From Halobiforma lacisalsi AJ5 (GTDB lineage: Archaea; Halobacteriota; Halobacteria; Halobacteriales; Natrialbaceae): a stretch of DNA of 64,000 nucleotides. Shown piece by piece: positions 15,735 to 23,421 of this stretch. Positions within the stretch are counted from its first letter, which is position 1. The number at the start of each line of letters is the position of its first letter. The stretch is taken from positions 2,356,001-2,420,000 of the forward strand of contig NZ_CP019285.1 in the NCBI RefSeq assembly GCF_000226975.2. The letters are read 5' to 3'. A model generated the notes under the pieces. That model worked only from the letters and a program-made list of their open reading frames with translations. It made no database searches and was not told the origin of the DNA. A program made the translations under genes and the position numbers.

Positions 15735-15809
15735 GCTCCGATAGTGTAGTCCGGCCAATCATATTGCCCTCTCGAGGCAATGACCGGGGTTCGAATCCCC
15801 GTCGGAGCA
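15735..15809 (+). tRNA. tRNA-Glu (anticodon CUC)
   Basis: The acceptor arms GCTCCGA (15735-15741) and TCGGAGC (15802-15808) pair fully, with discriminator A at 15809. The anticodon stem TTGCC/GGCAA encloses a 7-base loop with CTC at 15771-15773. The T arm carries GGTTCGAATCC between CGGGG-type stems. No CCA is encoded and no intron is seen. A TTAAAC box about 45 nt upstream is a likely promoter. A ruined integrase follows about 160 bp later, so this gene is a probable integration target. Confidence 0.95.
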
Positions 15810-15966
15810 CTCCTTTCTGCCGCCGTCTCCTGATTTCGAGCCCGTGCTATCATCATGTACCCATGTGGCTCGAAGGCAATTCGATTCAGAAGGTCTGGTC
15901 ACCCCGGCGCTGTACAGCGATTAGAACGATTTACCCTGCAATCCGATTCGCAGGACTTACCCACCG

Positions 15967-17075
15967 GTGGTCGGCGTGAACCTGAGCGACTTCGCCGTCG
16001 TCCCGGAGCCGACCGCAAACCGCCTCAGCGAGCGTCAACTGGTGGATTACCGGTCCGAGCGGGAAGCGACGATCAAGTGGTTGCTCACGTTCGGCATCGA
16101 CCCCGAGAAGGCCAAGGGATACGCGGAGAGTACCGTCAAGAACCGCATCTACCGAATGGACCAGTTCTACCGGTACGCGTGGGACGAAGAAGAACAGTAC
16201 ACCACCGCCGTTACCCACGAACACGCCGACGCGTGGATGCAAGAGTTGGCCTACGCCGACTGCAGCGACACGCACCGCGACCTGTGTCAGAAGGCCGTTC
16301 GGATGCTGTTCAAATGGCGCGCCCACGAGCGGGGCGGCGACGAGTGGGAGCCGACGATCACGTTCGCCTCCGATAGCAGAACGACGACACCCCGGGACTA
16401 CCTCACGCTCCAGGAGCGCCAACTCGTCCGAGAAGCCGCGCTCCAGTACGGGAGCGTTCCGTCGTACAACAACGTCTCACCCCGTGAACGGAGCAAGATC
16501 GCGGCGTACCTCGCTCAGCGAATCGAGAAACCAGTCGACGAGATCACGAAACAGGACTGGGAACGGGCCAACGACTGGAAGATCCCCAGTCTCGTCAGCG
16601 TCAGTCTCGACGCCGCACTGCGCCCGATCGAGGTCGAGCCGTAGTACAGTGGGTCGATCTCGATAACGGGATCTTGCGAACCCCCATCGAGGACAGCTCA
16701 AAGAACGAGGACAACTGGCGAGTCGGCCTCAGTAGTCGCACGATCACCACGCTCGAGCGGTGGCTCGATCAGCGTGCGACGTACGATGTGTACGAGAGGC
16801 GAGGCGAGTTGTGATTGACGCGAGAAGGAAACCCGTACGGCGCTGCCGCCCTGCGACGAATTCTCCACGATCTGTGCGACACCGCTGGCATCGACTACGA
16901 AGATCGACAGATGAGCTGGTACACCATCAGGCACTCCACGGGGACGTACATGACTCGTGAAGAGGATCTTGCGGCCGCACAGACACAGCTTCGTCACAAG
17001 AGTCCGGAGACGACCATGAAGTACGATCAGGTACCCGTCGAGGACCGGCAAGACGCCCTCGACCGGATAGGCTAA
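15967..17075 (+). pseudogene. Tyrosine recombinase/integrase, frameshifted and with a nonsense codon
   Basis: The first frame (15967-16644) encodes the N-terminal SAM-like domain and the start of the catalytic domain up to SLDAALRPIEVE with the first catalytic Arg. One base is then missing near 16640, and the protein continues in another frame (VVQWVDLDNGILRTP). That frame meets TGA at 16812-16814, where relatives would have Trp, as I judge from the flanking GEL and LTREGNPY. The last part holds WYTIRHSTGTY and LRHKSPETTMKYDQ with the His, Arg and Tyr residues. All catalytic residues are still recognisable, so decay is recent. Its place next to tRNA-Glu marks the edge of an integrated element. 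Confidence 0.88.
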
Positions 17076-17199: not shown

Positions 17200-18546
17200 T
17201 TATATCACTCCATGTAAAACCGACTCTAACTCCGCTTCCAACTCAGAAGCCTGCAGAATGGCAATCTCCTGCTCACCTTGGCCCTCTACAGACGCCGTCT
17301 CCCGATCAAGATCCTGCACGACCAGCATCCCGTTCCACCCCGATCCGAAGTACTCGCCGTCTTCCTCGCCAAACACGAACTCGTCGTTCACCCGCAAAAA
17401 CGCGAGATACTCGAGCGTCTCCTTGATCCCCTGGCGAATCGTCTCCTCCCGCGTACTATTTTTCACCTCGACGATCAGGTACTCGTGCTCGTTCTCGTCC
17501 TCCGAAATGACCTCGAGGACGATCACGTCAGGCCGACCCGTGTGATTCTGGTAGTCCTTTCCGAAGTAGTTGCCAGCAATCTCCTGTGCGGCAACCTGGA
17601 CCTTGTCCGTCCGAGATAACTCCGCTTTGTCCTCATCAGGGACCGCCACAAACGATAGCTCACGATCCCGGGCCGAGTTATCGTGGTAGAGGACGATCTC
17701 TTTCTCGCCCTTGAACCGCGCCAGTTCCTGTCGATCCGTGGCGATCGTTTTGAACTCGGGCTGGGTCTCCCGCATCTCCTCGAGAGTCGCCACGAACCGG
17801 AAGAGGACGAACAGCTCGAACAACGTGTCCTGATCGTCGGGTGCGATAGCGGTCTCTTCGAGCAACTGCCGGATCGCGTTGGGCTCCCCTCGGAACAACC
17901 GCTCTCGAGAGCGAAGCAACGACGCCGCATCCCGATACACCTCGTGGCGCGAATTGGCAGCCGTCGTCAGCATCCGCTCGGTTGGCTCATAGGTATCGGG
18001 CTCGCGGATCCGCCGGACGTGTACGTTTCGCTCGACGATACGCTGGAGTTCATCAACCAGTTCGTCGCTCCCCTTCCATGTCTCCGTGACCCACTCGTAA
18101 TCGCCCCGGAGGTACTCCTCGGCTTCTCGAATCGTCTCGTGGACGACGGAAATCAACCGCTTTAGAACGATATTCTCGGGGATGTCGTAGTCCTCGGATC
18201 GATTCTCGCAGACAAAAAGCGACCTGTCGCGGGGATGCTCCGCATACCGTTTCTTGATCGTCTTCCCCCAGTTGATTCGCCCATCGACCGTTCCCCGCCG
18301 CGTTCGAGACGTCGTCTGTGTCTCGGTCCGAATACTACGCAGATGCGCTGGCAGTTCCCTGAAGAACTCGACGACGTCGCTCTGGAGAATGAAGTGCAGA
18401 TCCAGGAGCAACTCGTATTCCTCGAACCGCTCGTCTAACTGCTCGGGCTTGATCGACCGGGCCAACTCCTGCTCCGGGAAGGAGCCATGCTTCGCGTAGG
18501 CGAGGATGTCCTCGGTGAGCTGCTCGAGGAGGGCGTCCCTATTCAT
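17200..18546 (-). CDS. mcrC: McrC-type restriction nuclease subunit (DUF2357/PD-(D/E)XK)
   Basis: The 448-residue protein is a McrC-like partner of the ATPase gene upstream. Its middle region has VDGRINWGKTIKKRY and ENRSEDYDIPENIVLKRLI, typical of DUF2357/McrC proteins. The C-terminal nuclease core is GRPDVIVLE followed by EYLIVEVKN (Asp near 340, Glu-Val-Lys near 360-362), the PD-(D/E)XK signature. McrC subunits cut DNA when driven by the McrB GTPase/ATPase. The ATG at 18546 lies inside the last codons of mcrB (the two genes overlap by 8 bases), so the subunits are translationally coupled. Catalytic residues are intact. Confidence 0.85.
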   Translation of the reverse strand: MNRDALLEQLTEDILAYAKHGSFPEQELARSIKPEQLDERFEEYELLLDLHFILQSDVVEFFRELPAHLRSIRTETQTTSRTRRGTVDGRINWGKTIKKRYAEHPRDRSLFVCENRSEDYDIPENIVLKRLISVVHETIREAEEYLRGDYEWVTETWKGSDELVDELQRIVERNVHVRRIREPDTYEPTERMLTTAANSRHEVYRDAASLLRSRERLFRGEPNAIRQLLEETAIAPDDQDTLFELFVLFRFVATLEEMRETQPEFKTIATDRQELARFKGEKEIVLYHDNSARDRELSFVAVPDEDKAELSRTDKVQVAAQEIAGNYFGKDYQNHTGRPDVIVLEVISEDENEHEYLIVEVKNSTREETIRQGIKETLEYLAFLRVNDEFVFGEEDGEYFGSGWNGMLVVQDLDRETASVEGQGEQEIAILQASELEAELESVLHGVI

Positions 18547-21500
18547 TCGTGGCAAGCGTCACCTGGAGCATCTCTTGGGCAGCCGATTCGAGCAGATCGC
18601 CATTGATTTCGTCGACAGCCGCGAGCCTTCGAACGATCTTCTCACGTCTCGGCACCCCCTCTAACTGCGGGAAAATGTAGCTGATGACCGCCTGCGTTAG
18701 GTGCTGGTCGAGGTCCGCTTCCGGGTGATGCGTGATGTATCGGAGGATGTCTTCGACGATTGCGGGCCCGATCGCTCGTTCGTCTATCGCCTGGTTGGTC
18801 GCTTGCCAGACACGGCCGACTGCCCACGCCTGGGGACGGGACGCTTCGATTTCCCACGCATCGGCATACTCGAGCACGACGTCCTCGACCGTTCGTCCAC
18901 CCTCTGTTTGTCCTGTTCCCTCCGGAAGTTCGGGCACAGGGATGCGAACGAACGCGAACCGTCGCATGAACGCGTAACTCATCTCGTACAGCGACGTCTT
19001 GTCGTAGGCGTTCATCGTAGCGAAGATCCGCCACGAGTTGGGAACGACGTACTGGTTTGCAGCAGGACGTCCTTCGAGGTCCGCATACGTCGTGAGTTCC
19101 ACTTCTCGCCCATCGACCGTGTACGGCAGTTGCACCGATTGGCCGGACAACAGCGTGAAGAGTTGCCCGAACGCTTTGTCGATATCCGCTCGGTTGAGTT
19201 CGTCAATCACGAGGAGTTCATTCGACTGCGTCCCACTCTCGAGATCTTTGAGCCGGTTGAGGACGATACCGGGTGTAAAGGAGAGGTCGTCACCGTTCTC
19301 ACCGGATTCGTTCGGCATATACCCGCCGACGGTATCGAACGTCGACCAGTCAGCAGTGGCTGTCGTCATCTCGAAATCCGTGTACAAGTGAGGGTGATGC
19401 TCGACGAGATACTCACAGACCCGTTCGGCGATCTCCGTTTTCCCCGTTCCCGGCGGGCCGGTAAGGAAGACGTGCTTACCGGATTGCAGCGCTGTCGCGA
19501 TCTGCTCGAGAATCTGCTCACCGCGTCCATCTTCGAAGTGAAGCCCCTCGAGGATGTCCGTCGGAAGCGTACACTCGAGGTCCTGGTGAGGATTGATCGG
19601 TGAGACCTCCTGTAGGTCCTCAGCCATCCCCTCGATCAACGCAGCGGGACGCTCGTAATCGATTTCACCGTCCTCTGTCCGGAAAGTCCCATACATCGAT
19701 TGCGCGGGGAACTCCTTTCCGGAGATATTCGCACAGAGTCGATTGGCCTCCTCGATCGACAAGCAATTGGCCGTCAGGGCAGCCAGTTCTTGATTGACTT
19801 GTGCTGTCTCTTTGGCAGTGATCCCTTCTGTGAAGTCGATAGCGTCGACGTCCCCGGTAAGGAAGAGCCGATCGAAGCCGGCGATCATCGAGAAGTCCGC
19901 ATCGGTCTCGTATTCCTCCCACCACCATGGGTCGGGTTTCTCAGTGGTTTCGCCGAAGACGACTGCACCGATTACACCGCTTGGTTGGGAATCGAGTTCC
20001 TCCTTTCCAGGTTCGGTTCGTGAATGAAGAATCCCGACGTCACCCTTCTCGAGCTGTTCCCAGCGATTGCGATGTTCCGGCTCGAACGAGAGCGATCCGT
20101 GTTCGATGGCCGTGAGCCAGTACTCTGGCGGCGCGGTAAACTTGTAGACAGTCGGTTCCTGGTCTCGCAGGTGCGTCGTTAGTGGATGGTCGATTTCAAC
20201 CGATGGTTGGACCCGGGATGGATCACCAACCTCGTATGAATCTTTGAGCACACTGTTGAGTCGAGGTTGGTTGAGACCACCCCCGAGATCTAGTTCCTCC
20301 TGGCGAAGTCGCACCCAGCCCAAGAAGAGGGTCTGAGCGGGCGAAAACCGACCAAGTGTTCCACTGCCGAGGGCAGACGCTTTCTCGGCTAAATCCGCCT
20401 CGAGAGTCCGGTAGACGATCCGAAGCTGATCGAGTTTCGTTGCGGTCGACCGGTCGACAGTATCGGATGGCCTGAACCCCTCGAGCGCCTCCGACCACTC
20501 TTCGATGAAGGAGTCCCCGACTCGAGTCTGGAACCAGGACTTGTCTTCTGCCGAGAGACGAGACCGAATATCCTCGAGGGCCGCGTCTAACGAGTCGTAT
20601 TCCCCGGCAGCCCCGTCAGGATAAAGCTGTTCGCCCTGAATCACCTCGATGAACAGGGAGACAGAATCGTACTCCTCGTAGAACCCTGAGCCACCGCGAT
20701 CGAAATTGATGGCACTGAACGTATCGTTGGGCCAGCCCTTGAACCCGAGCAGATCCCAGAACTGCGCTCGATCGAGCTTGGCTTCGTAGATCGGTTCGAG
20801 GAACATTACATGCGGGAAGACCTGATCGGTCACATCGCCCCAGCCGACTGCGTTAGTGAACTGGGCTGCTACATCGTCATCTAACACTGTGGCGTGGGTG
20901 ATCTGCGCAAGGAGTGTATACGACCCGCCACGGCGTCCCTCTCGATCAGCGAAGAGGAGGTAATCGCCCTCATCGGCCGGCTCGTCTTCCTGGTTCCCCC
21001 AGACTCGAACGGAGTCCCCGTCGATCGGCGGCTCGTAGGTATCGGTGATTTGGTCGCGGGGAACGTCCTCGAGTATGGTCCGCTCGAAATTCGTCCGGAT
21101 GGGGCCATCACCCGTCTTGATCGGGACCTGGTACACCGAGGGATCGGCAAACTGCTGCAGGTTCGAGTTCGCACCCGTCTGAATGGAGCTAGAATCGGTG
21201 CTCTCTCGAGTCCCGCGTTCGGCTGGGAGTTCGTCGTCCCGAATTGGCGCAAGGAGGAACCGAATTGCACGTCGTGTGTTCCCCTCCGAGTCTGGGAGTC
21301 CTTCGTAGAAGTGACCCGCATAGAGGTATTGCCCGATGTAGCGGACGCCATCGTCTTCCATCTCGAAAAAGTGCAACTCGCGGCCGTCCTCGAGATGATC
21401 TCGAATCGCTCGGTTGCCCCGGACCATCTCCATGTCGCCGACCTGGCCTTCGCCCGTGTAGACTATCGTGCCATCCGAGCGGAGTTTATCCTGGTAGCCA

Positions 21501-22189
21501 TGTTCTTCGCCGGTGCCACCGCTAAAGAGAAAGACGACCGGTTCGTCCCTCGAGGGAGCGATTCCTCCCTGGATGCTGCCGCCATATGCCGAGTGCAGTT
21601 CGCGGCGTTCGTAGATAGTGTCAGACTCGAGGTCGACACTCGAAACCCCGTGTAGTTGTTCGGCGACTGCTTCACCGGCTGCGGTGAGATGGATCTGATC
21701 GTCGCTTCGATCGACGTAGCCGGTCGTCTGCAGCCACTCACGATGGCGGCTCGCAACGCCGGGCGTTTCCATCTGACACTCCTCGAAGGTCTCCACGAGC
21801 AACTCCATGAGTTCCTCATCGGTTTTCGGTTCAGTAGTGAGTGCAGCGAGGATCGTGTCGAACCCTTTGACCGTGGTTCGAAGGGCGTTGTAGAGGACCG
21901 CTGGGTCCTGTTCCTCGAGATAGCACCGTCCAATTCGGGTACAGCTGTATGTAGCATCCGTGCTCTCGAGCAGGTCCAATTGCTCGAGGAACTGCAGTCG
22001 TCGTTCGATGGCGTCAGGGTCTTCAGCGTTCGTCCTGGCGGCGATCCAGTCTACGACGTCGTCTCGAGGAACGCCGTCTGAGTTTTCGCCAGCCGACTCG
22101 AGAAACGAGAGCAAATCAGCCAGAATCTCGGATCGCTCCGCGAGGTCACCGTAGAACCGTGCGGTAGACATCCGACGATCGTCCGTCAT
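18539..22189 (-). CDS. mcrB: McrB-type AAA+ restriction ATPase with SRA-like and EVE/PUA-like reader domains
   Basis: The 1216-residue protein has, in order: winged-helix-like segments (residues 15-185); an SRA-like domain of the ScoMcrA type (about 195-315; YGGSIQGGI, VYTGEGQVGDMEMVRGNRAI); a first PUA/EVE-like region (390-520; VRVWGNQEDEPADEGDYLLF); a helical part; a second EVE-like region (680-790; EYWLTAIEHGS, EKGDVGILHSR); and a McrB AAA+ domain. The last shows Walker A GPPGTGKTE near 911, Walker B LLVIDELNRAD near 994, and MNAYDKTSLYEMSYAFMRRF as the McrB MNxxD motif. It should load on modified DNA and drive McrC. A TATA box at 22215-22224 supports the leaderless ATG at 22189. The reader-domain calls are from motif reading only. 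Confidence 0.85.
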   Translation of the reverse strand: MTDDRRMSTARFYGDLAERSEILADLLSFLESAGENSDGVPRDDVVDWIAARTNAEDPDAIERRLQFLEQLDLLESTDATYSCTRIGRCYLEEQDPAVLYNALRTTVKGFDTILAALTTEPKTDEELMELLVETFEECQMETPGVASRHREWLQTTGYVDRSDDQIHLTAAGEAVAEQLHGVSSVDLESDTIYERRELHSAYGGSIQGGIAPSRDEPVVFLFSGGTGEEHGYQDKLRSDGTIVYTGEGQVGDMEMVRGNRAIRDHLEDGRELHFFEMEDDGVRYIGQYLYAGHFYEGLPDSEGNTRRAIRFLLAPIRDDELPAERGTRESTDSSSIQTGANSNLQQFADPSVYQVPIKTGDGPIRTNFERTILEDVPRDQITDTYEPPIDGDSVRVWGNQEDEPADEGDYLLFADREGRRGGSYTLLAQITHATVLDDDVAAQFTNAVGWGDVTDQVFPHVMFLEPIYEAKLDRAQFWDLLGFKGWPNDTFSAINFDRGGSGFYEEYDSVSLFIEVIQGEQLYPDGAAGEYDSLDAALEDIRSRLSAEDKSWFQTRVGDSFIEEWSEALEGFRPSDTVDRSTATKLDQLRIVYRTLEADLAEKASALGSGTLGRFSPAQTLFLGWVRLRQEELDLGGGLNQPRLNSVLKDSYEVGDPSRVQPSVEIDHPLTTHLRDQEPTVYKFTAPPEYWLTAIEHGSLSFEPEHRNRWEQLEKGDVGILHSRTEPGKEELDSQPSGVIGAVVFGETTEKPDPWWWEEYETDADFSMIAGFDRLFLTGDVDAIDFTEGITAKETAQVNQELAALTANCLSIEEANRLCANISGKEFPAQSMYGTFRTEDGEIDYERPAALIEGMAEDLQEVSPINPHQDLECTLPTDILEGLHFEDGRGEQILEQIATALQSGKHVFLTGPPGTGKTEIAERVCEYLVEHHPHLYTDFEMTTATADWSTFDTVGGYMPNESGENGDDLSFTPGIVLNRLKDLESGTQSNELLVIDELNRADIDKAFGQLFTLLSGQSVQLPYTVDGREVELTTYADLEGRPAANQYVVPNSWRIFATMNAYDKTSLYEMSYAFMRRFAFVRIPVPELPEGTGQTEGGRTVEDVVLEYADAWEIEASRPQAWAVGRVWQATNQAIDERAIGPAIVEDILRYITHHPEADLDQHLTQAVISYIFPQLEGVPRREKIVRRLAAVDEINGDLLESAAQEMLQVTLATNE

Positions 22190-22214
22190 TCTTTCGTAAC
22201 ACGTCACAGCACCG

Positions 22215-22224
22215 TATTATAAAT
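22215..22224 (-). promoter_or_regulatory. TATA box of the mcrB-like gene
   Basis: On the minus strand this reads ATTTATAATA, centred about 31 nt before the ATG at 22189. This fixes the seventh codon of the long frame as the likely leaderless start and gives mcrBC its own promoter, separate from that of the upstream nuclease-like gene. Confidence 0.6.
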
Positions 22225-22380: not shown

Positions 22381-23421
22381 TCAGTATTGGTGTTCGAACC
22401 GCAACTCATCATGAGTGTAAGAGTAGGATTTGATACCCGCTTCTTCGCAACGCGAACTGAGGTCGGTCGGATTTACGTCGTGCTGTTCGCCGAGTTCTTT
22501 TTCGAGATGCTTACAAAACGCGATAGTGATCTCTCGGTCATCGTCGGACTCCTCTGCAACCTCGAGAACCACTGCTAGATCCGGGTCGTCGTAATCTGGT
22601 TTGATGACGTAGTCTCCTGGGGTGAAAGGGTTCTCAGGATACTCGAGATTCGTGTGTTTGTAGGTATAGAGCTTGATATCTTGATCGTCACAATACGAAG
22701 CTAGCTTCGCCGGATGGATCTCTCTCCAGTTCCCAGGACCGTTATCGAGCATATTCGGAAACGCGACGTTCACGGCTTCCCCATCCATCTCTTGCCCGTA
22801 AGCTGTCGTATTTTTCTCCGGTGGCAATACCTCAACGACCACTGCGACCGAAGCATCACCGTCTCCTTGCTTTACGACACGATCGCCGGGTGAGAACGGG
22901 TTCTCCGGTTTTTGATTGAGATGAGCTGTGTTCGGGCCCAAGTCGTGTAACTCATTCATCGGCCGGGCAGCCAGGTGGGCGAGTTTCTCGGGCCCTTCGC
23001 CGGAATATGCCTCCTGGGTACTGACCTTCGATTTGAGCGTCTCAGTGCGTTCCCATCCCAACAGGATCAGGGCATCCTCGTTGTCCCGATGCCAGACCAT
23101 CGCGATGATGTCGTCGTCAGGATCGTTCTCCAGCAGATTCGATGGCCGAAACGCCGAGACGTCTCTCGAGGTCTTCACGTCTACATCGTACCCGAACACC
23201 TCGAAATCGTGGCCAGAGAAACTCTCTGGGTTACACCGCCGAATTGCCGCTTCGTTCTGCCATTCCCACATCTCGACTGGAAGGTACTCTCGACAGAACT
23301 GCTCGAACGCGAGCTCACCGAGATTCCCGATCCGTTTCACGTCGATGTCGTCCGCACCCTGAATCACCGCCTGGTGATTCGCTCGCTCCCGGTCGATCTC
23401 GTCCGGCGAATAGAGATACAT
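22381..23421 (-). CDS. PD-(D/E)XK nuclease-like protein with duplicated C-terminal domain
   Basis: I do not recognise this 346-residue protein by name. Residues 30-125 look like a restriction-endonuclease fold. They contain GNLGELAFEQF with a helix Glu (36), then HDFEVF (Asp72) and YDVDVKTS (Asp81, Lys83), then IIAMVWHRD and ALILLGW. The C-terminal half is a tandem duplication: NPFSPGDRVVK (174) and NPFTPGDYVIK (264) each lead to a VAVVVEV/LAVVLEV strand, then VAF or IAF, then a Cys-bearing helix and IKLYTYKH or IKSYSYTH. This suggests two small beta-barrel binding modules. It precedes mcrB on the same strand, making it a probable third part of the module. Confidence 0.7.
   Translation of the reverse strand: MYLYSPDEIDRERANHQAVIQGADDIDVKRIGNLGELAFEQFCREYLPVEMWEWQNEAAIRRCNPESFSGHDFEVFGYDVDVKTSRDVSAFRPSNLLENDPDDDIIAMVWHRDNEDALILLGWERTETLKSKVSTQEAYSGEGPEKLAHLAARPMNELHDLGPNTAHLNQKPENPFSPGDRVVKQGDGDASVAVVVEVLPPEKNTTAYGQEMDGEAVNVAFPNMLDNGPGNWREIHPAKLASYCDDQDIKLYTYKHTNLEYPENPFTPGDYVIKPDYDDPDLAVVLEVAEESDDDREITIAFCKHLEKELGEQHDVNPTDLSSRCEEAGIKSYSYTHDELRFEHQY

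Follow-up and report, generated by a model that had tools for sequence, protein, structure and literature searches.

A candidate one-gene restriction nuclease of haloarchaea and their viruses with exchangeable SH3/Tudor-like reader domains

A gene without a name stands directly ahead of a mcrB-like gene in a stretch of 64,000 nucleotides from Halobiforma lacisalsi AJ5, a haloarchaeon of the family Natrialbaceae (contig NZ_CP019285.1, positions 2,356,001 to 2,420,000), the whole of which we call the window. An earlier note on this DNA had described its product as an unfamiliar nuclease-like protein with a duplicated C-terminal domain that might add a second nuclease or a targeting function to McrBC. 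What kind of enzyme does this gene, here called P1, encode, what might its repeated domains do, and does it belong to the McrBC system at all? Weighing the evidence below, we lean towards the view that P1 is a restriction-type nuclease that works alone, spreads laterally, carries reader domains open to exchange and probably senses modified DNA.

The P1 gene and the island around it

The locus contains the following features:

22381-23421, minus strand: P1 gene, PD-(D/E)XK-type nuclease domain followed by two predicted SH3/Tudor-like domains, 346 aa, ATG start
22966-23421, minus strand: N-terminal nuclease domain of P1, residues 1-152, assigned from residue invariance, the ExK variant and the predicted fold
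23314-23316 (E36), 23206-23208 (D72), 23179-23181 (D81) and 23173-23175 (K83), minus strand: putative catalytic codons of P1
22633-22902, minus strand: C-terminal copy 1, residues 174-263, predicted SH3/Tudor-like reader domain
22384-22632, minus strand: C-terminal copy 2, residues 264-346, predicted SH3/Tudor-like, the fastest-evolving part of P1
23445-23451, minus strand: TATA-like box of P1, TATATTT, 24-30 nt upstream of the ATG
18539-22207, minus strand: mcrB-like neighbour, 1222 aa, AAA_5 GTPase-type domain, probable ATG at 22189
22215-22223, minus strand: TATA-like box of mcrB, TTTATAATA
17200-18555, minus strand: mcrC-like neighbour, 451 aa, overlapping the mcrB stop (ATGAATAG), assigned from context and conserved mcrB linkage
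15735-15810, plus strand: tRNA-Glu (CTC), island edge
15967-17075, plus strand: broken tyrosine-type integrase, N-terminal SAM-like and catalytic parts in different frames, internal stop

The open reading frame, its four proposed catalytic residues and the two units of about 85 residues were all found where the earlier note had put them: E, D, D and K stand at residues 36, 72, 81 and 83, the units start with NPFSPGDRVVK at residue 174 and NPFTPGDYVIK at residue 264, and the motifs IKLYTYKH and IKSYSYTH start at residues 249 and 330. An alignment of the two units scores 134, whereas 1000 shuffled versions averaged 25 and never exceeded 46; the similarity is thus far beyond chance and the C-terminal half is a genuine duplication of one domain. 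The protein also proved as unfamiliar as it had been called. No model in Pfam, NCBIfam or PADLOC matches it, and searches of the PDB sequences with P1 or with profiles returned nothing meaningful. Only PHROG 18072 (phrog_18072), a family without an assigned function, matches P1, over its full length (E 5.8e-178); it is the same family, and the divergent subfamilies match it too. Upstream of P1 and its relatives (64 relatives or loci) the A+T content peaks at -30 and -27 (0.83 and 0.79), within -33 to -25, so that the box of P1 is promoter-like, in the position expected of a leaderless archaeal transcript.

The mcrBC/P1 island begins at the tRNA-Glu gene, followed by the frameshifted, stop-interrupted integrase, which marks its edge; an exact att repeat longer than 13 bp was not found in the window. 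As the earlier note had it, P1 precedes mcrB on the same strand, with a gap of 173 bp. The mcrC-like protein (451 aa) gave no match in any library searched. The McrB-like protein is unusually long: a winged-helix-type N-terminus (HVO_A0261_N) lies ahead of the AAA domain, residues 236-295 give a very weak SAD_SRA match (E 0.23), and residues ~690-780, before the AAA domain, look EVE-like by eye.

Putative nuclease and reader domains

For the N-terminal domain a PD-(D/E)XK core had been proposed from four residues, and their conservation bears this out: none of E36, D72, D81 and K83 varies among 37 core P1 members, and the same E/D/D/K residues are kept in three divergent relatives (L085, L086 and L087; ~30% identity). 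The C-termini of L085 and L086 are unrelated to that of P1 and L087 consists of the nuclease domain alone; a reciprocal search from L085 recovers the P1 family with E values of 1e-12 to 1e-17. With the divergent relatives included, 19 of the 152 N-domain columns are invariant, and by a simple count the chance that the four named positions all fall among them is ~2e-4. A profile search of the phylum added two still more distant nuclease-only proteins (L188 and L189, 180-187 residues), in which the Glu of the helix and the Asp are retained and ExK takes the place of DxK (D81 replaced by E). Exchange of D and E beside a conserved lysine is a signature of the PD-(D/E)XK superfamily, and its acidic triad with lysine, (E)...D...(D/E)xK, is present in P1 and its relatives. 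The genes of the two distant proteins (L188:110-670 and L189:3903-4442) adjoin a PCNA-like gene, outside Halobacteria, and one of them also lies near terminase- and portal-like genes (gene names read from sequence); both loci are apparently archaeal tailed proviruses.

The predicted structure points weakly the same way. The N-domain model (pLDDT 68; residues 54-71 below 50) has a helix at residues 26-46, strands at 73-75, 78-85, 105-112 and 117-125, and a second helix at 126-138. PD-(D/E)XK nucleases make up almost all of its structural neighbours, although each match is weak and none individually significant: VIA-align returns DXO1/Rai1, influenza PA endonuclease, Eco15I and NhoI at Z 4.5-5.4 (best Z 5.4), and the Foldseek neighbours include HincII, lambda exonuclease, MGME1 and Cas4, each with E >0.2. 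Phage proteins named restriction endonuclease are among the matches in a viral library. We infer that P1 very probably cuts, i.e. that it has nuclease activity.

Both C-terminal repeats are modelled as SH3-like barrels, with pLDDT mostly 80-90. Their top Foldseek match is a tandem Agenet structure (E 9.8e-4), followed by the tandem Tudor domains of SETDB1, UHRF1 and 53BP1; VIA-align, mostly with copy 2, gives Z 6-7 (weak if taken alone) to SH3-like barrels including chromo-barrel and Tudor domains and R67 DHFR. As generic SH3 barrels such as R67 DHFR are reached at equal Z, we draw no functional reading from these matches. According to the models, then, the P1 repeats are tandem SH3/Tudor-like barrels, which supports the fold and not a ligand; Tudor and SH3 folds bind proteins and RNA too.

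Single-copy members of the family exist, mostly in proviruses. In a tree of the copies, copy 2 of 47 of the 48 rows falls into one clade, so that one old duplication explains nearly all of the two-copy members; the same tree places an independent duplication in one Natrinema lineage (L071/L168). Mean pairwise identity is 80% for the nuclease domain, 71% for copy 1 and 45% for copy 2. Judged from the median dN/dS (0.05, 0.10 and 0.23, respectively; dS near saturation), the reading frame is under purifying selection in all its parts, and copy 2 appears to evolve about five times faster than the nuclease domain, a factor to be read with dS near saturation. Positive selection on copy 2 was considered and rejected: dN/dS is below 1 everywhere, and our claim is therefore limited to faster evolution.

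The readers also change by exchange. An island with the identical order P1-mcrB-mcrC is found in Halobiforma haloterrestris, of the same genus (L118). Between the window and this island the two mcr genes are 90-92% (mcrB) and 92.5% (mcrC) identical in DNA sequence, and the P1 nuclease domain 86% (94% as protein); identity then falls to 67% in copy 1, 55% in copy 2 and 54% in the spacer. In L118 and in a second locus, L055, the nuclease domain is 93-94% identical to that of the window, the readers only 57-59%; these readers come closer (77-81% identity) to those found in a different group, L061, L065 and L067, whose nuclease domains are ~80% identical. Accordingly, L118 and L055 group with the window type in the nuclease tree (split 100/100) and with L061/L065/L067 in the reader tree (split 100/99). 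The AU test rejects the opposite grouping for the reader data (p 0.018); for the nuclease data the split of group A against group B plus the chimeras is not rejected (p 0.28), a split that only needs group A to stay together. Since the two proteins stand on opposite sides of the nuclease and reader trees, the reader region has been exchanged by recombination beneath a conserved P1 nuclease.

Distribution, neighbours and related proteins

Full-length relatives of P1 at 60-89% identity occur across Halobacteria. Broken copies counted, relatives are present in 50 of 125 Natrialbaceae and in 125 of 391 Halobacteria genomes; the Natrialbaceae copies comprise 38 intact and 10 broken ones. Haloarchaeal plasmids and the pleolipovirus Halfgib1 have relatives as well. 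When 85,000 species genomes were scanned, 70 P1 loci emerged, whose named organisms are all haloarchaea or haloarchaeal-type metagenome genomes; no homologue was confirmed in two scans of the IMG/VR viral contigs. One relative (L073:8362-10450, the gene also found as L164) is split by an insert of ~1 kb exactly between its nuclease and reader domains; further interrupted copies occur in genome G050 and in Haloterrigena sp. H1.

Twelve distinct pleolipovirus-type (pro)viruses carry P1 (13 loci, two of which are Halfgib1 and its host copy), in a slot between the repressor/integrase cassette and the VP8 gene. Over all 72 loci a methylase was recognised beside P1 in about 10 (D12 in 7, Dcm in 2 that belong to one virus, Eco57I-type in 1; not every neighbour is annotated). 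In the 7 loci with D12, six of which came from the scan of species genomes, P1 is followed by a Mrr_cat nuclease and the methylase, and in Halfgib1 and its host copy L150 a C5 methylase directly precedes P1. The pairing of a Mrr-type enzyme with a methylase downstream of P1 in Halorubrum and Halobellus is odd: a conserved Mrr_cat+DUF7226 nuclease stands with the D12 adenine methylase directly after P1 (L139:9095-11017, with equivalents in L033, L123-L126 and L130). Genes for orc1/cdc6 and MCM lie beside P1 in some loci, and in Haloferax profundi (L154:993-4449) P1 sits between two MCM-related open reading frames (411 and 398 aa) of one cluster.

The repeat unit, searched as a profile, turned up in other fusions. 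It is joined to an HNH nuclease in three genes (L055:7858-8862, L052:7678-8547 and L218:4437-5333; Pfam HNH E 4e-13 to 9e-15), two of which directly adjoin P1 and are convergent with it, and to a ParB_N-like domain in two others (L217:4825-5547 and L221:4397-5167). It also occurs in small proteins of ~170-300 residues (L210-L215), with several paralogues in genome G120, and within a protein of 570 residues (L216); plain tblastn likewise ties these reader proteins to P1. The P1 reader is hence common to two unrelated nuclease folds, as is the case for the known specificity modules SRA and EVE, which occur with HNH or PD-(D/E)XK domains (PMC11347163; PMC7641849).

Proposed function and comparison with known systems

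In the reading that we prefer, P1 would act on its own as an endonuclease, a defence unit of a single gene that passes back and forth between haloarchaea and their viruses. The residues E36, D72, D81 and K83 of its N-terminal PD-(D/E)XK domain would bind metal and cut, while the SH3/Tudor-like barrels would recognise a target feature, most likely foreign or modified DNA, and would direct or license cutting by a nuclease that has no specificity itself, in the manner of modular type IV (modification-dependent) restriction enzymes. Cells and proviruses with P1 would in this way exclude incoming viruses and plasmids. DNA is the likely substrate of P1, and a role in defence or exclusion seems equally probable; that the enzyme depends on DNA modification is a suggestion we make tentatively. 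An enzyme that acts alone has to leave its host unharmed, and this suggests that it senses foreign or modified DNA. In Natrialbaceae, the presence of intact P1 is independent of that of C5 and D12 methylases, with no sign of avoidance (odds ratios of 1.38 and 1.37, respectively, not significant). This is a weak argument against 5mC or Dam-type methylation as a general mark, though not against particular sequence contexts or other modifications. A 5mC or Dam-type link by way of methylase avoidance thus gave no signal and was set aside.

The closeness to mcrB that gave rise to the earlier proposal is real. The window, L118 and L109 all have P1 adjoining mcrB in the same orientation, and by the listed coordinates P1 and McrC lie within 10 kb of each other in 8 of the 42 genomes that have both, compared with 0.2 expected (Poisson P(>=7) 3e-9). 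An accessory subunit of McrBC, be it a second nuclease or a targeting factor, is nevertheless a highly improbable role for P1: across 382 genomes the two show no association (odds ratio 0.99, p = 1), McrBC is near P1 in only 7 of 72 loci, in variable and often convergent orientation, and mcrB has its own TATA-like box and overlaps mcrC, with P1 173 bp away. Independence at the level of genomes together with closeness above chance is the pattern of a defence island and not of a two-part system. The implied partnership therefore fails on co-occurrence and gene arrangement, mcrB and mcrC not being constant partners; P1 is not a McrBC subunit, and mcrB is a neighbour rather than a part of the P1 system.

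Three other explanations, ranked by likelihood in the order given here, have to be set against a solo restriction-type nuclease. P1 might be a sequence-specific type II endonuclease relying on a methylase encoded elsewhere, for example the Dcm of Halfgib1 or a persistent orphan methylase of the host. Its place directly behind a C5 methylase in Halfgib1 and in L150 would also suit a type II pair, and variation and exchange of the readers would fit changing target sequences; we still consider this rather unlikely, as a methylase was recognised beside P1 in so few of the 72 clustered neighbourhoods (not every neighbour being annotated) and Halorubrum, a genus in which intact P1 is common, almost entirely lacks the obvious universal protector, the orphan CTAG m4C methylase (1 of 10; PMC10609329). 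The distribution of this methylase also disfavours P1 as a CTAG cutter shielded by it. Improbable, too, is an RNA-cutting or self-toxic effector that kills or arrests the infected cell, with the Tudor-like domains sensing a viral product. RNA enzymes (PA, DXO/Rai1) are among the structural neighbours of the N-domain, which counts against the DNA-cutting reading, and the frequent decay of P1 (10 broken to 38 intact copies in Natrialbaceae) fits a costly gene. Decay is usual for restriction genes as well, however, the reader is also found joined to HNH and ParB-like domains, both of which have DNA as their target, and no recognisable antitoxin accompanies P1 in several proviruses. A nuclease for replication, recombination or maintenance of mobile elements, without a part in defence, would explain why P1 occurs on plasmids, in proviruses and in some loci beside orc1/cdc6 and MCM genes, and why L188 and L189 adjoin PCNA in what appear to be archaeal proviruses. 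This is quite improbable to us, since P1 is present in only a minority of the related pleolipoviruses, where its slot varies, since the majority of copies stand alone on chromosomes or plasmids, and since restriction genes recur as neighbours.

If P1 is indeed a solo restriction-type nuclease, about one third of the haloarchaeal genomes carry an unrecognised one-gene restriction enzyme or its remains. Current defence-gene finders would overlook it, since none of the PADLOC, Pfam and NCBIfam models matches, and it would also arm pleolipoviruses against competitors. Its reader would be a testable candidate for a new class of archaeal DNA-modification or sequence sensor, for which the natural exchange of readers offers ready-made pairs for mapping what is recognised. 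A bolder and rather doubtful idea is that haloarchaea and their viruses use a modular DNA-targeting set built on one SH3/Tudor-like reader with PD-(D/E)XK, HNH or ParB-like modules, in which the readers are duplicated, fast-diversifying and recombined, giving solo restriction enzymes that change their specificity for a DNA mark or sequence. Should this hold, a Tudor-like domain would for the first time be given a prokaryotic role in detecting DNA that is modified or foreign.

We found no description of the P1 family in the literature searched, whose coverage is thin for subscription journals, and P1 is most likely a new nuclease family with a reader domain that, to our knowledge, has not been linked to restriction before. 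None of the known modification-sensing domains (SRA, EVE, NEco, wH) is matched in P1 by Pfam, and we know of no modification-sensing role for an SH3/Tudor-like fold. New here are the reader fused to HNH and ParB-like domains or standing alone, the fast copy 2 and the exchange of readers.

Among known proteins, the eukaryotic tandem Tudor/Agenet readers (AGDP3/ADCP1, SETDB1, UHRF1) share with P1 two consecutive SH3-like barrels, predicted in P1. The barrel fold alone is common to them, TM-scores over both domains are low, and methyl-lysine binding is not implied. McrBC, a GTP-dependent type IV system, is likewise a PD-(D/E)XK restriction system and neighbours P1 in the window and in several other islands; P1, for its part, lacks a dedicated NTPase partner and is found independently of McrBC. 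MspJI and PvuRts1I (PD-(D/E)XK with SRA) and the BisI family (Eco15I, NhoI) resemble P1 in that a PD-(D/E)XK domain is joined to, or itself forms, a modification sensor. Eco15I and NhoI are among the structural neighbours of the P1 N-domain; no sequence similarity of P1 to MspJI, PvuRts1I or the BisI family was found, and the reader fold differs, being SRA in MspJI and PvuRts1I, absent in the BisI family and, by prediction, SH3/Tudor-like in P1. A parallel in lifestyle is HHPV4I (HhiV4I), the Gm6ATC-dependent SRA/PUA-wH-HNH endonuclease of the pleolipovirus HHPV4, which adjoins an integrase and two repressors there and has relatives in haloarchaeal genomes (PMC10101028). Like P1 it is cargo of a haloarchaeal pleolipovirus, placed next to the integrase and repressor genes, and it acts alone with readers separate from its nuclease, as we propose for P1; it combines HNH with winged-helix/SRA readers, in contrast to the PD-(D/E)XK-type domain and tandem SH3/Tudor-like barrels of P1, and no sequence relation was found. 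In most of the 72 loci no methylase was recognised beside P1 (not every neighbour being annotated), as would be expected of a type IV enzyme. By analogy of architecture, P1 may work like the modular enzymes of this type.
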